From positions 1 through 28,753 of the IMG/VR virus record IMGVR_UViG_3300024518_002449: a DNA stretch of 28,753 bases; one strand, written 5' to 3'. Positions within the stretch are counted from its first letter, which is position 1. Each line of letters opens with the position of its first letter. The notes beneath the pieces are model-generated. The model was not told the DNA's origin, did no database searches, and saw only the letters and a program-made list of their open reading frames with translations. The translations under genes and the position numbers were made by a program. Below, piece after piece: positions 1,889 to 5,442 of the stretch. Origin of the DNA: a virus.

Positions 1889-2102
1889 GCAGGTCCCTCC
1901 TCACGCGCTCGGCGAGCGCAGTCGCCTCCCCCAAGTGAAAGTACATCCCCGGTATGCTGCCCTTCGCGTACGACAACGTCATCTTGTCGATGGTACTGAG
2001 CAGTTCCTCGAGCGCGGTCCAACTTGGTGCGAACGGAGGACCACTGACCTCGTCGTAGATGTTTTGGATTCTGTAGTCAGCCTCTTCGAGCTCATCGGTC
2101 AC
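1863..2102 (-). CDS. Small hypothetical helical protein, 79 aa
   Basis: I do not recognise this family. The start is GTG at 2102, sharing one base with the TAG stop of the upstream gene (a TAGTG junction), preceded by a run of six G. The protein is mostly helical: an acidic first helix (ELEEADYRIQNIYDEV), a second (ALEELLSTIDKM), and a last basic one (EATALAERVRRDLRASRSRE). There is no signal peptide or membrane segment. Its position inside a closely overlapping operon and its consistent amphipathic pattern make it probably real. Length and composition suit a small helical-bundle binding protein, but no function can be stated. Confidence 0.55.
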   Translation of the reverse strand: MTDELEEADYRIQNIYDEVSGPPFAPSWTALEELLSTIDKMTLSYAKGSIPGMYFHLGEATALAERVRRDLRASRSREG

Positions 2103-2530
2103 TATCCCCCCAGTTTCTTCAACTTGTTGTTCACGGAACGCAATTCGGAATCGAGAGAATCAGAATGACGACCGTAGCTCTTCGTCGAGTGGTCGATCGT
2201 TGCCTGGATCTCATCACGCCGGGCCCGCAGTTCGTCAACGGCAGTTGTCCCCTGTCCCGCCCATACACCGCAGAGCAAGTCATCGAGTCGAGAGCATCCC
2301 TTAGAGGTGAGCCGACTCAACGAAAGGGTGAGTGGTGTGCCCGCCCCGCCGTTCGAGGCGAGGCGTACGGCGTTGATCAGCTCCTCCCAATTCCCATCAA
2401 TGTACTCGTCGATCAGAGCAAGCGCGTGGTCTCTTGTCACCCCCCACTTCCTCGGCATTGGAGCCCTGACCTCTGGGTTATTTGCCGCTGTCTTCGCTAC
2501 CCGCTCCCACTGGTTTCGCAGATCGATCAT
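2102..2530 (-). CDS. Hypothetical protein with C-terminal coiled coil, 142 aa
   Basis: I do not recognise this family. ATG at 2530 overlaps the upstream stop in an ATGA junction and has AAAGG nine bases upstream. The N-terminal third is helical with an arginine/proline patch (EVRAPMPRKWGVTRDHALAL), the middle holds a leucine-rich segment (TPLTLSLSRLTSKGCSRLDDL), and the last 45 residues form a heptad-like coiled coil (VDELRARRDEIQATIDHSTK and SELRSVNNKLKKLGG), which suggests oligomerisation. There is no signal peptide, membrane segment or catalytic motif. It is the second gene of the leftward operon. A structural or adaptor role in the early region is possible, but nothing specific can be shown. 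Confidence 0.6.
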   Translation of the reverse strand: MIDLRNQWERVAKTAANNPEVRAPMPRKWGVTRDHALALIDEYIDGNWEELINAVRLASNGGAGTPLTLSLSRLTSKGCSRLDDLLCGVWAGQGTTAVDELRARRDEIQATIDHSTKSYGRHSDSLDSELRSVNNKLKKLGG

Positions 2531-2850
2531 TCAGTGCGGCCTTTCGACAGTCTGGACCTGTAGACCTGGATGGCATGACTTCTTTCGGGGCAGTCGTCAA
2601 GGGAGCAAAGCCAGTTGAAGACACGCTCTTGAATCCCCCGCCAGTTCTCATAGAGAAGTGGGTCCCTGGGGTCGGTGAGGAACTGAGCAAGCCCTTCATC
2701 GTCCAGAGTTCCCCCGACAATCCTGGACTTCCATCCCTGGCTTGGGGGCCAGGAGACCCCGACCGCTGCGAGTTGCTTCTTCGTCCACCCACCACGTTTC
2801 GTTTTTGCTTTTTCGATCAGGTCGTAAGTGACAGGCGTTCTCATGGACAT
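2527..2850 (-). CDS. Hypothetical phage protein with WPP-type motif, first gene of leftward operon
   Basis: This is the first gene leftward of the divergent control region. ATG at 2850 and ATG at 2844 are both possible; the second has GAAGG six bases upstream, the first a G-rich run, so the start is uncertain by two residues. The protein contains RGGWTKKQLAAVGVSWPPSQ followed by GW and a basic helix. The pattern 'x-LxxxGVxWPPxxGW' resembles small uncharacterised phage proteins that I recall in several tailed-phage genomes, in which the motif follows a Thr-x-x-x-Leu helix. The C-terminal half is helical with three cysteines or tryptophans nearby (FNWLCSLDDCPERS) and a basic end. No enzymatic function is known to me; the motif may be a protein or nucleic-acid binding element. 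Confidence 0.6.
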   Translation of the reverse strand: MSMRTPVTYDLIEKAKTKRGGWTKKQLAAVGVSWPPSQGWKSRIVGGTLDDEGLAQFLTDPRDPLLYENWRGIQERVFNWLCSLDDCPERSHAIQVYRSRLSKGRTE

Positions 2851-2959
2851 CCTTCCCCCACACCCCCATCCAGTACACGAACGTGACTAGTTGAGATGTT
2901 CTTGATGATGTTGTGTGTGTGCTAGAGGGAGTGTGAGGGAGATCCTCGGCACTCAGGCC

Positions 2960-3004
2960 AAAAAAAAACACGAAGCGTCCGTATCGGGGAAGTGCAAGAC
3001 TTCG
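2960..3004 (-). terminator. Weak candidate leftward terminator or attenuator
   Basis: On the minus strand, an inverted repeat (CGAAG at 3004-3000 pairing with CTTCG at 2975-2971, loop 24 bases) is followed two bases later by nine T. A smaller hairpin (GAAGT/ACTTC, 2989-3003) lies inside the loop. A leftward transcript starting to the right of 3004 could stop or pause here before reaching the first leftward gene. The stem is short, so this is only a candidate. Confidence 0.2.
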
Positions 3005-3019
3005 CCGAGCTAGGAGGAA

Positions 3020-3044
3020 TCGTTTAAAAAAACGACACTAGTGT
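3020..3044. promoter_or_regulatory. Pair of adjacent palindromes, possible operator
   Basis: TCGTTT (3020-3025) and AAACGA (3030-3035) form a perfect inverted repeat around AAAA. It is followed at once by the perfect 10-base palindrome ACACTAGTGT (3035-3044). The weak -10-like TTTAAA (3023-3028) lies in the first palindrome, so a repressor or activator bound here could control rightward transcription. No second full copy of either palindrome was seen, though ACTAGT recurs at 2886-2891. Function is inferred. Confidence 0.3.
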
Positions 3045-3045
3045 T

Positions 3046-3199
3046 TAGAGCTGGCCACCCAATGCGGTAGGATCCCGGCTCTTCTTCATGTACACCCGGG
3101 ACCATACGGCCAGGGCGCTGCTTCTGCAAGCCCTCCTCGGTCGAACACCCACGACCTGCCGGGCATGACTCGCCCCTCTGGTATGGCCCCGGATTTTTT
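3046..3199 (+). ncRNA. Candidate structured leader RNA before the late operon
   Basis: Several inverted repeats are ordered along this stretch. CTGGCC (3051-3056) pairs with GGCCAG (3108-3113) and encloses a second stem, TCCCGG (3073-3078) with CCGGGA (3096-3101), extended by two G-C pairs across a one-base bulge. Then come GCTT/AAGC (3120-3123 with 3128-3131), GGTCG/CGACC (3139-3143 with 3152-3156), and finally the intrinsic terminator at 3159-3199. A transcript starting near 3035-3045 would thus give a folded RNA of about 155-165 bases ending in U. Short terminated leader RNAs are known at the late promoters of lambdoid phages, and folded antiterminator RNAs are known in HK022 (put sites). 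Random hairpins are common in GC-rich DNA, so folding alone is not proof. No convincing ORF fills the stretch. Confidence 0.3.
3159..3199 (+). terminator. Intrinsic terminator 41 bases upstream of the first late gene
   Basis: CCGGGCAT (3159-3166) can pair with ATG (3183-3185) plus CCCGG (3188-3192), leaving bases 3186-3187 as a bulge and a 16-base loop; the stem is followed by A and six T (3194-3199). It reads in the direction of the late operon and lies between any upstream promoter and the small terminase gene, so read-through or antitermination would be needed for expression unless a promoter lies in 3200-3239. Confidence 0.45.
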
Positions 3200-3239
3200 C
3201 CTCCCTTGACTCCCGTTCCTGTCATGGTCCCCTATCCAC

Positions 3240-4010
3240 ATGAAGGAACGCAAAGTCCACCTTCCCGACATCGGGAAGCAGAAGCGCCCCTCCCTTGCCG
3301 TGAGCAAGATCGTCGGTGCTGTCGATTCCGGCACCTCCTGGGCCAGATCCCTTTCCCAGTCGCAGATCGCCGATCTGATCGATCTCGCGGGCGAACTCGC
3401 CCAGATCTTCCCACCCATGAAGAACCGGCAGATCACCCAGAAGGTGTTCGATGCCAAGCTCGAGGAGATCGGGGAACTCGAGAATGGGCGGGCGAAGCTC
3501 GCGCGGGTGATCGGGCTCGGGAACGGGCTCCTCTCGCTGTACCTCGTCTGGTGGTCGTTTTCGTACTGCTTCAACTTCACCCGGATCTCCGGGCTCGGCG
3601 TCAACGAGGACGAAGAGGACACGATCAACCAGAAGGTCGCCGCGTCCATGGGAGTCAGCGAGTCGGTCCTCCTGTCGCGCGTGACGCGCCGCGACGTCGG
3701 CTACTTGGTGAACCTCTTCCTCCAGCGTAGCGCGCAGGAGATGCGCGGCCAGGTGGCCTGGACGGTCACTCAGGGTGCCATGGCTGGGAACGGTCATGCG
3801 ATCAACGCCTACTTCAAGCACATCGTCGGCGACGGGGAGGAGGCGGCGGGTCGCGGCACCCACTTCGATCCGTTCTCCATGACCGAGGGTGAACTCGAGG
3901 CTGAGATCTCCAAGATCAAGAAGCAGGTTGGCGAGGAGAGCATCAAGAAGCGTGATCTCCCGGAGGAGGCGAAAGATGTCGAGTTCGATATCCGATCAAC
4001 AGGAGATTGA
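3240..4010 (+). CDS. Probable terminase small subunit (TerS-like)
   Basis: The gene lies directly before the large terminase and overlaps it by 35 bases, the usual place of the small, DNA-recognising terminase subunit. The N-terminus is basic (KERKVHLPDIGKQKRPSL) and the central part is helical. The C-terminal part contains NAYFKHIVGDGEEA followed by an acidic/basic helix (SMTEGELEAEISKIKKQVG), an arrangement that recalls small terminase C-termini that contact the large subunit. At 256 residues it is longer than the usual 140-200, and I see no clear N-terminal helix-turn-helix, so the name rests mainly on position. ATG 3240 is the first start in frame after a TGA at 3207-3209; it lacks a clear Shine-Dalgarno, which is odd for the first gene of the operon. 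The small subunit would bind the packaging site and regulate the motor. An unrelated replication or regulatory protein is the main alternative. Confidence 0.5.
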   Translation: MKERKVHLPDIGKQKRPSLAVSKIVGAVDSGTSWARSLSQSQIADLIDLAGELAQIFPPMKNRQITQKVFDAKLEEIGELENGRAKLARVIGLGNGLLSLYLVWWSFSYCFNFTRISGLGVNEDEEDTINQKVAASMGVSESVLLSRVTRRDVGYLVNLFLQRSAQEMRGQVAWTVTQGAMAGNGHAINAYFKHIVGDGEEAAGRGTHFDPFSMTEGELEAEISKIKKQVGEESIKKRDLPEEAKDVEFDIRSTGD

Positions 4011-5442
4011 ACCGGCTTTCCGCGATCATCGGCAAGAGCAGATCGAGGAACTCGAACGCCTGCGCCTGAAGCGGGATCTGATCCGCCGCGCCCCGTACTT
4101 CCACAATGAACCCTGGGGATCTCAGCGCGGTTTCCGCGGTTCAGAGGCCCGGATCCGCATTCTCCTCGGTGGCAACCGATCGGGGAAGTCGACCGAGGGG
4201 ATCATAGAGGACACCTCCTACTGCCTCGGGTTCCGGCCAGACGGATCGAAGAAGGGTCTTCCGGTTCCGCCCGTCAAGCTCGGCGTGTTCGTCAACGACC
4301 GGGCGAAGATCGCGACCACGATCATGCCGAAGATCCGGGAGTACATCCCGAACGACTGGATCAAGAAGATCAGGAACGGGCACGACGGTCTCCCCGAGGT
4401 GATCACTTGGGAGAACGATTCGGAGATGTGGCTCCAGTCCTACGCGCAGGACGTGAAGGGCCAGGAGGGGATCGACTGGGATGGCGCGCACTTCGATGAG
4501 CCGCCCCCTCGTGGTTACTGGATCGCTGTGCGTCGTGGGCTCATCGACCGGGGTGGCCGCGCTTGGTTCACGCTGACGCCGCTCGGCTGCCAGTGGTTGT
4601 ATAACGATATATACAAGAAGGCGGACGGCCACAACATCGCGGTGTTCGAGATGGACATGCGTGAGAATCCGCACCTCGACCCCAAAGAGATCCAGGCGTT
4701 CATTGACGATCTCCACCCCGACGAGTTCGAGTCGCGCGTGCTCGGGAAGTTCTCGCACCTCCAGGGTGTGATCTTCCCTGAGTTCCGCAGGTCGACCCAC
4801 GTCATCCCAGCTCACACCCCACCGGACGACTGCCCGATCTTCATGGTCATGGACCCGCACGACCGTCGCCCGAGCTACATGATCTGGTGCTACGTCGACC
4901 CGCGCGGTCGGATCGTGGTGTTCGATGAATGGCCGAATGAGGCGTTCGAGCACATGAAGACTTCGCGTCTCTCGATTCGCGACAACGCGAAGATCATCTG
5001 GGACAAAGAGGCGCGTCTTCGGAACAACCCGCACGAGCGCCTGATCGATCCGAACTTCGGTCGGACCCCAAGCCACCTCTCTGGGACCACGCTGATCGAG
5101 GAATACACCGAGTTCGACCTCGACTTCTTTGGCGACATCAATAACGACATCGCGCTCGGTCACACTAGGATTCACGAGGCTTTGGCCTGCGATGGACGAG
5201 ATCCCATGCTCATGGTCACGGAGAACTGCCGGAATATGGTCTGGGCCTTCGAGGCATACTCGTGGAAGATGGTGGACCTGGAGCGGACGACCTCGAGGGA
5301 GCGCCCCAGTGACATCGGGAAGGACCAAATGGATGTCCTTCGCTACCTGTTCGACTACCGCCCGACGTACGACATGGGCAACGAGATGTTGAACGAGACC
5401 GACAACTTCACCCCGGAAGACTACGGAGAAGGCTATGGATAA
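3976..5442 (+). CDS. terL: Terminase large subunit, ATPase and nuclease
   Basis: This is the DNA-packaging motor and headful or site-specific nuclease. I use ATG 3976 (488 residues), which has GGAGGAGG seven bases upstream; an in-frame ATG at 3889 lies deep in the previous gene and has no such site. Motifs in order: Walker A LLGGNRSGKST (residues 63-73, K71); Walker B IDWDGAHFDE (166-175, with catalytic D174-E175); coupling motif TLTPLG (199-204); then an RNase H-like nuclease with the first acidic residue in VMDPH (D293), the second in LIDPNFG (D358), and the third in GKDQMDVLRYL (D450 or D453). Length fits the family (450-550). It would dock on the portal at the procapsid and use ATP to pump DNA. 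It overlaps the portal gene by 8 bases. Identification is firm; the packaging type (cos, pac or terminal repeats) cannot be told. Confidence 0.95.
   Translation: MSSSISDQQEIEPAFRDHRQEQIEELERLRLKRDLIRRAPYFHNEPWGSQRGFRGSEARIRILLGGNRSGKSTEGIIEDTSYCLGFRPDGSKKGLPVPPVKLGVFVNDRAKIATTIMPKIREYIPNDWIKKIRNGHDGLPEVITWENDSEMWLQSYAQDVKGQEGIDWDGAHFDEPPPRGYWIAVRRGLIDRGGRAWFTLTPLGCQWLYNDIYKKADGHNIAVFEMDMRENPHLDPKEIQAFIDDLHPDEFESRVLGKFSHLQGVIFPEFRRSTHVIPAHTPPDDCPIFMVMDPHDRRPSYMIWCYVDPRGRIVVFDEWPNEAFEHMKTSRLSIRDNAKIIWDKEARLRNNPHERLIDPNFGRTPSHLSGTTLIEEYTEFDLDFFGDINNDIALGHTRIHEALACDGRDPMLMVTENCRNMVWAFEAYSWKMVDLERTTSRERPSDIGKDQMDVLRYLFDYRPTYDMGNEMLNETDNFTPEDYGEGYG

Follow-up and report, generated by a model that had tools for sequence, protein, structure and literature searches.

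Control of phage late genes by antitermination is known from few model phages. In the lambdoid phages lambda and 21, a terminator (tR') lies between the late promoter PR' and the late genes, and late expression depends on readthrough under the Q protein (PMC6606751). In the AlpA operons of Pseudomonas aeruginosa, intrinsic terminators lie directly before the first gene, beginning 26 or 54 nt after the site where transcription starts, and are bypassed with the help of an antiterminator (PMC7969949). The put RNA of HK022, of about 70 nt with two stem-loops, operates in early operons and makes RNA polymerase resist later terminators (PMC9378689), and in the Caulobacter gene transfer agent antitermination by GafY/GafZ controls the capsid and packaging cluster (PMC11150451). 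A keyword search of the literature returned no title or abstract describing the arrangement reported here, which is weak evidence of novelty given the incomplete coverage of such a search.

The locus considered here lies in IMG/VR virus record IMGVR_UViG_3300024518_002449, a genome fragment of an uncultured phage; the whole stretch of 28,753 bases was analysed and is referred to as the window. Small leftward genes end at 2850, a divergent intergenic region occupies 2851-3239 and the rightward late operon runs from 3240 (Table 1). The original prediction of an antitermination switch was built on the order of control site, short structured RNA, terminator and terminase. Sequence reading and gene annotation confirmed this order of parts, from the divergent control region through the foldable stretch and the T run to terS and terL. 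Reading of the sequence also confirmed that a T6 run (3194-3199) sits 41 nt 5' of the terS ATG (3240) and in the same direction. The terS-position gene had no matches in PHROGs or Pfam and has no clear Shine-Dalgarno sequence, its SD score of -2.2 being among the weakest in the window. The terL reading frame opens at 3889, and its ATG at 3976 has a strong Shine-Dalgarno sequence (SD score -12.1); genes for the portal (phrog_1216) and the major head protein (phrog_1328) follow. No family match was found for the minus-strand ORF at 3010-3225, and Rfam and tRNA searches of the window found none.

Table 1. Features of the divergent intergenic region and of the start of the late operon (window coordinates).
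Feature	Position	Strand	Basis or remark
ACTAGT-centred palindrome ACACTAGTGT (3036-3045) inside AACGACACTAGT	3031-3045	.	repeats D2 and I8; candidate operator
5' hairpin GAGCTGG.../...CCGGCTC (segments 1:2)	3048-3081	+	minimum-energy fold
TCCCGG/CCGGGA pair (segments 2:3), competitor of the terminator stem and inner nested stem	3073-3101	+	ensemble folding
Putative terminator domain, 3096-3107:3181-3192 (segments 3:4) around three hairpins, then A + T6	3096-3199	+	repeat I3; z -3.65
Hairpin with one bulged G, burying the terS start codon (3240-3242)	3215-3249	+	predicted fold
terS-position gene (256 aa), opening the late operon	3240-4010	+	22-33% identity to same-place genes of relatives
Terminase large subunit gene (terL)	3976-5442	+	phrog_2, E 1.7e-22; Pfam Terminase_6N above cut-off

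Only two T6 runs occur on the plus strand of the 28.7-kb window, and one of them is that at 3194-3199. The local hairpin originally proposed to form an intrinsic terminator with it (3159-3199) did not hold up: the stretch 3158-3200 folds no better than its dinucleotide shuffles (z +0.23), and this short-range candidate was dropped in favour of a better, long-range stem. The latter is the inverted repeat I3 (3096-3107/3181-3192; 12 nt, 92%), for which ensemble probabilities give P = 0.99 in RNA 3048-3200. As a terminator stem it would be atypical, since it encloses about 70 nt of branched RNA. Against dinucleotide shuffles, the best domain, 3094-3201, folds with z -3.65, its boundaries having been picked after the fold was seen; the corresponding values are z -2.9 for 3048-3201 and z -3.7 (1/300 shuffles) for the leader plus start, 3048-3255. 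The comparison of 3030-3210 with shuffled controls, which had been put forward as a check of the original prediction, gave z -2.45, with 3 of 200 shuffles equally good. As a background, 5.2% of 744 windows taken from both strands of the contig lie at z -2.4 or beyond, and 1.9% at z -3. The energy of the closing stem is matched by 24 of 1000 shuffles (p about 0.024). By these measures the predicted leader fold beats chance by a modest margin, and appears unusual rather than exceptional.

In trp-type attenuators, successive rival stems (1:2, 2:3 and 3:4) compete, and the last of them carries the U run. The predicted folds of the leader show the same order of successive, mutually exclusive stems and the same terminal U run, although the window contains no convincing leader peptide or sensed signal; two short frames, with ATG at 3063 and 3087, have no clear Shine-Dalgarno sequence by eye. 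This topology arises in 2.6% of shuffles (39/1500) and in 4.8% of native stretches (209/4368). The order in which the stems form was followed by folding a growing transcript, with 3048 assumed as its 5' end. The TCCCGG/CCGGGA pair has a probability of 0.88-0.98 in nascent RNAs ending at 3140-3160 and of 0.00 in those ending at 3193-3200, where the arm 3181-3192 is complete and the terminator stem reaches 0.99. Once the 5' hairpin is formed, TCCCGG is hidden and the terminator stem is free to form; in RNAs beginning at 3056-3070, which miss the first bases of this hairpin, the probability of the terminator stem is only 0.12-0.31. The nested pair of stems noted in the original prediction (CTGGCC 3051-3056/GGCCAG 3108-3113 around TCCCGG 3073-3078/CCGGGA 3096-3101) is indeed present in the sequence, but its probability in the complete terminated RNA is about 0. 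According to the folding model, it would represent an antiterminator-like competitor, favoured only until the terminator arm has been synthesised.

The strongest local structure is found at the start of terS, where 3201-3260 folds at -18.1 kcal/mol (z -3.9, 0/500 shuffles). Among 23 starts in the window that of terS has the lowest z (-3 to -4), the other 22 rightward starts all being at -1.5 or higher. In all readthrough lengths tested from 3250, the terS ATG is paired with a probability of 0.87-1.00, either within the start-codon hairpin or with 3084-3105. If formed as predicted, the hairpin would act as a translational brake on terS. We rejected its conservation in relatives: a similar hairpin seemed to occur in L013 and L022, two loci of the sister clade described below, but with z of -1.7 and -0.6, and it is absent from L024.

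How does this locus compare with the described systems? For the lambdoid feature of a terminator between promoter and first late gene, the window offers a T6 run and a 12-nt stem as candidates, with the modest statistics given above. Unlike lambdoid tR', the putative terminator of the window sits just before terS, its stem closing a branched domain about 100 nt long, and neither a promoter nor a Q family gene was found in the window. A scan of 2000-4500 for sigma70 promoters, the one promoter type it covers, found 0 promoter-like sites; since this includes 3200-3239, transcription of terS would have to arrive from upstream, across the T run. No gene of the lambda-type Q families (PF06530, PF03589) was found in the window, which is a genome fragment, and such antiterminators need not share sequence. 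Like the leader, HK022 put is a foldable RNA placed close to where a phage operon begins; Rfam searches gave no match, the fold and position in the window differ, and the structure here, unlike put, contains the terminator. In the Caulobacter gene transfer agent, the terminator comes after the first gene and is made up of three 150-bp repeats, again unlike the window. More generally, Rfam yielded nothing at the gathering threshold and nothing up to E=10 in 2850-3300, the phi29-type packaging RNA family included; blastn of the intergenic region against the loci collected up to that stage gave nothing significant, and DNA patterns of the leader had 0 matches in IMG/VR.

Our preferred reading, to which we give a probability of roughly 0.4, is that the element serves the late operon as a terminated leader, that readthrough of it is regulated, and that the start of terS is buried. 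From the sequence parts and predicted folds we infer the following course. A putative promoter upstream of about 3048 would give a transcript about 150 nt long. Its 3' portion, 3096-3199, would fold into the branched domain and, through the 12-nt closing stem and U6, stop transcription by default. Late expression would then depend on readthrough, which either a phage factor targeting RNA polymerase or the rival TCCCGG/CCGGGA fold could bring about. In the readthrough RNA, the terS start codon would be held in its hairpin, so that terS, as the first late gene, would be restrained a second time.

Relatives of the phage were sought at several levels. No DNA-level relatives were present in 50,697 phage records, among which the best TerL identity was 29%, and a scan of IMG/VR for exact TerL octapeptides returned 0. 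An alignment-based search retrieved 21 IMG/VR loci, including 14 whose TerL shares about 50% identity with that of the window, and later a larger set at about 30%. In the TerL tree, where eight rows represent the 50% group, the window branches as its sister (support 100/98), while its relationship to the large clade at about 30% has support of just 40/24. The sister clade has the gene order and divergence of the window, and the terminated RNA before terS is absent from its loci. In three of these loci (L013, L015 and L022), TATGTA is followed by 6 nt and the terS ATG, an arrangement resembling a -10 box with a leaderless start. Locus L188, with TerL 49% identical to that of the window, is filed in the Euryarchaeota metagenome bin Guaymas_22; this may reflect mis-binning, or point to archaea as hosts of the sister clade.

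The large clade at about 30% TerL identity to the window (62-73% among ten members) is separate and differs in this respect. Within the 800 nt preceding terL, 18 of 50 loci carry a sigma70 promoter and, after it, a hairpin with a T run ahead of terS, whereas dinucleotide shuffling, repeated for 20 rounds, gave 0-2 of 50 (mean 0.4); downstream of terL, only one promoter-terminator pair was found in 228 kb. A second scan with somewhat looser criteria gave 34 of 64 contigs, which come down to 30 distinct cases showing an extended -10, in which the hairpin mostly starts 6-23 nt past the -10 (two cases lie at 27 and 36). In contigs L189-L268 (for example L231, L236 and L244), the extended -10 sigma70 promoter (TTGACA, TATAAT), the close hairpin terminator and terS lie roughly 500-650 nt ahead of terL. 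Eleven cases, selected for shared sequence around the hairpin, form a sub-group that has GAGGCAAATGGACAG in common, running up to the stem and into it. Among them 90% of cells are paired compared with 75% in shuffles (0/500 as high), and the covariation score is 0.553 compared with 0.249. This covariation shows selection for the hairpin, and says nothing of a particular function because terminators need stems. The order of promoter, terminator and terminase in the separate clade is real. It is the promoter-terminator order of lambdoid late control, placed before terS. The AlpA operons come closest to its promoter-terminator spacing; their pathway, with a known antiterminator, concerns host lysis and is prophage-like, unlike the terminase operon of the window. 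The Pfam Q families were not found in 11 long contigs of the clade, which are fragment records. Three members carry group I introns (Rfam RF00028, bits 62-73; L137:6749-7029, L143:6438-6640 and L147:6732-6974), at about equal distances downstream of terL.

The real terminator before terminase in the separate clade raises the prior for a regulatory reading of the window, and by this analogy late-operon control by readthrough is plausible there. The two are not demonstrably the same: the window has no promoter found, no sequence in common with the separate-clade unit and another fold, and its closer relatives lack the element. The original idea of an antitermination switch thus retains its layout and the separate-clade analogy, while the stem it named was unconvincing and the searches found no promoter, Q gene, Rfam match or RNA-bearing relative.

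Could the RNA instead act in trans? A stand-alone small RNA, about 150 nt long and with its 3' end at 3199, with the late operon on its own non-consensus promoter, would agree with the compact fold and T6 end, and the promoter-like TATGTA directly before terS in the sister clade would be a precedent for such a promoter. The leader segment 3084-3105 is, moreover, 77% complementary to the terS start (3224-3245). This pairing beats every leader shuffle, yet equally strong pairing with the leader is reached by 98 of 480 native stretches, and we did not retain it; its probability varies from 0.03 to 1.00 with transcript length. With a promoter found on neither side of the T run, and both an Rfam match and a homologue absent from the searches, we regard a trans-acting RNA as unlikely.

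Another alternative is that the region functions as DNA, serving control through operators or packaging through a cos or pac site, and that the RNA folds are by-products of inverted repeats. The palindrome that the original prediction placed before the stems was located by sequence reading (Table 1), and AACGACACTAGT (3031-3042) recurs at 10 of 12 bases as AACGTGACTAGT (2880-2891), so that ACTAGT repeats stand on either side of the divergent region; ACTAGT has only 3 copies in the window, two of them within the intergenic region. The same region contains an A9 run (2960-2968), which reads as T9 on the minus strand and precedes the first leftward gene by about 110 nt. We considered a mirror-image leftward terminator at this run and discarded it, its fold being ordinary (z -0.05 and -1.2). 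In the separate clade, more than 20 contigs from different metagenomes (L125-L186) start with CACC[CT]G..CA.ATATAT..CCCCC (or CCCCAC...), and joined forms in L151, L155, L159 and L174 read GTGAC-CACCC; therefore the left end of these genomes, judged from contig sequences, is very probably fixed and cos-like, just before the promoter-terminator-terS unit. This end, 100-200 nt before terS, occupies a place equivalent to the leader of the window. However, its sequence has no match in the window, the one-arm bulge of the start hairpin would fit RNA better than a symmetric DNA site, and the T6 run is left unexplained, which makes a DNA-level site improbable.

The least probable explanation is a plain insulator terminator or chance, with a spacer T6 behind GC-rich folds and no regulated leader: 3'-closing helices with a minimum of 8 pairs are common (482 of 1500 shuffles, 1763 of 4368 native stretches), a simple terminator scanner found only a 5-bp stem at the T6 run, chance alone predicts 2.0 terminator-like sites in the 2.5 kb scanned, and the sister clade has not kept the element, but the scarcity of plus-strand T6 runs, the closing-stem energy and the z of -3.7 for 3048-3255 speak against it.

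If the terminated leader is the correct reading, the window would carry a more elaborate form of the separate-clade unit, specific to its lineage; the evidence from the window alone is suggestive only. That an immediate terminator at the head of the packaging operon, here joined by a start-codon hairpin, is a widespread means of late-gene timing in uncultured tailed phages, relieved by a non-Q antiterminator or by the RNA fold itself, is a broader proposition that we consider doubtful. The separate clade, with its extended -10 promoter, close hairpin terminator and terS, nonetheless provides a defined set in which to seek new antiterminators.
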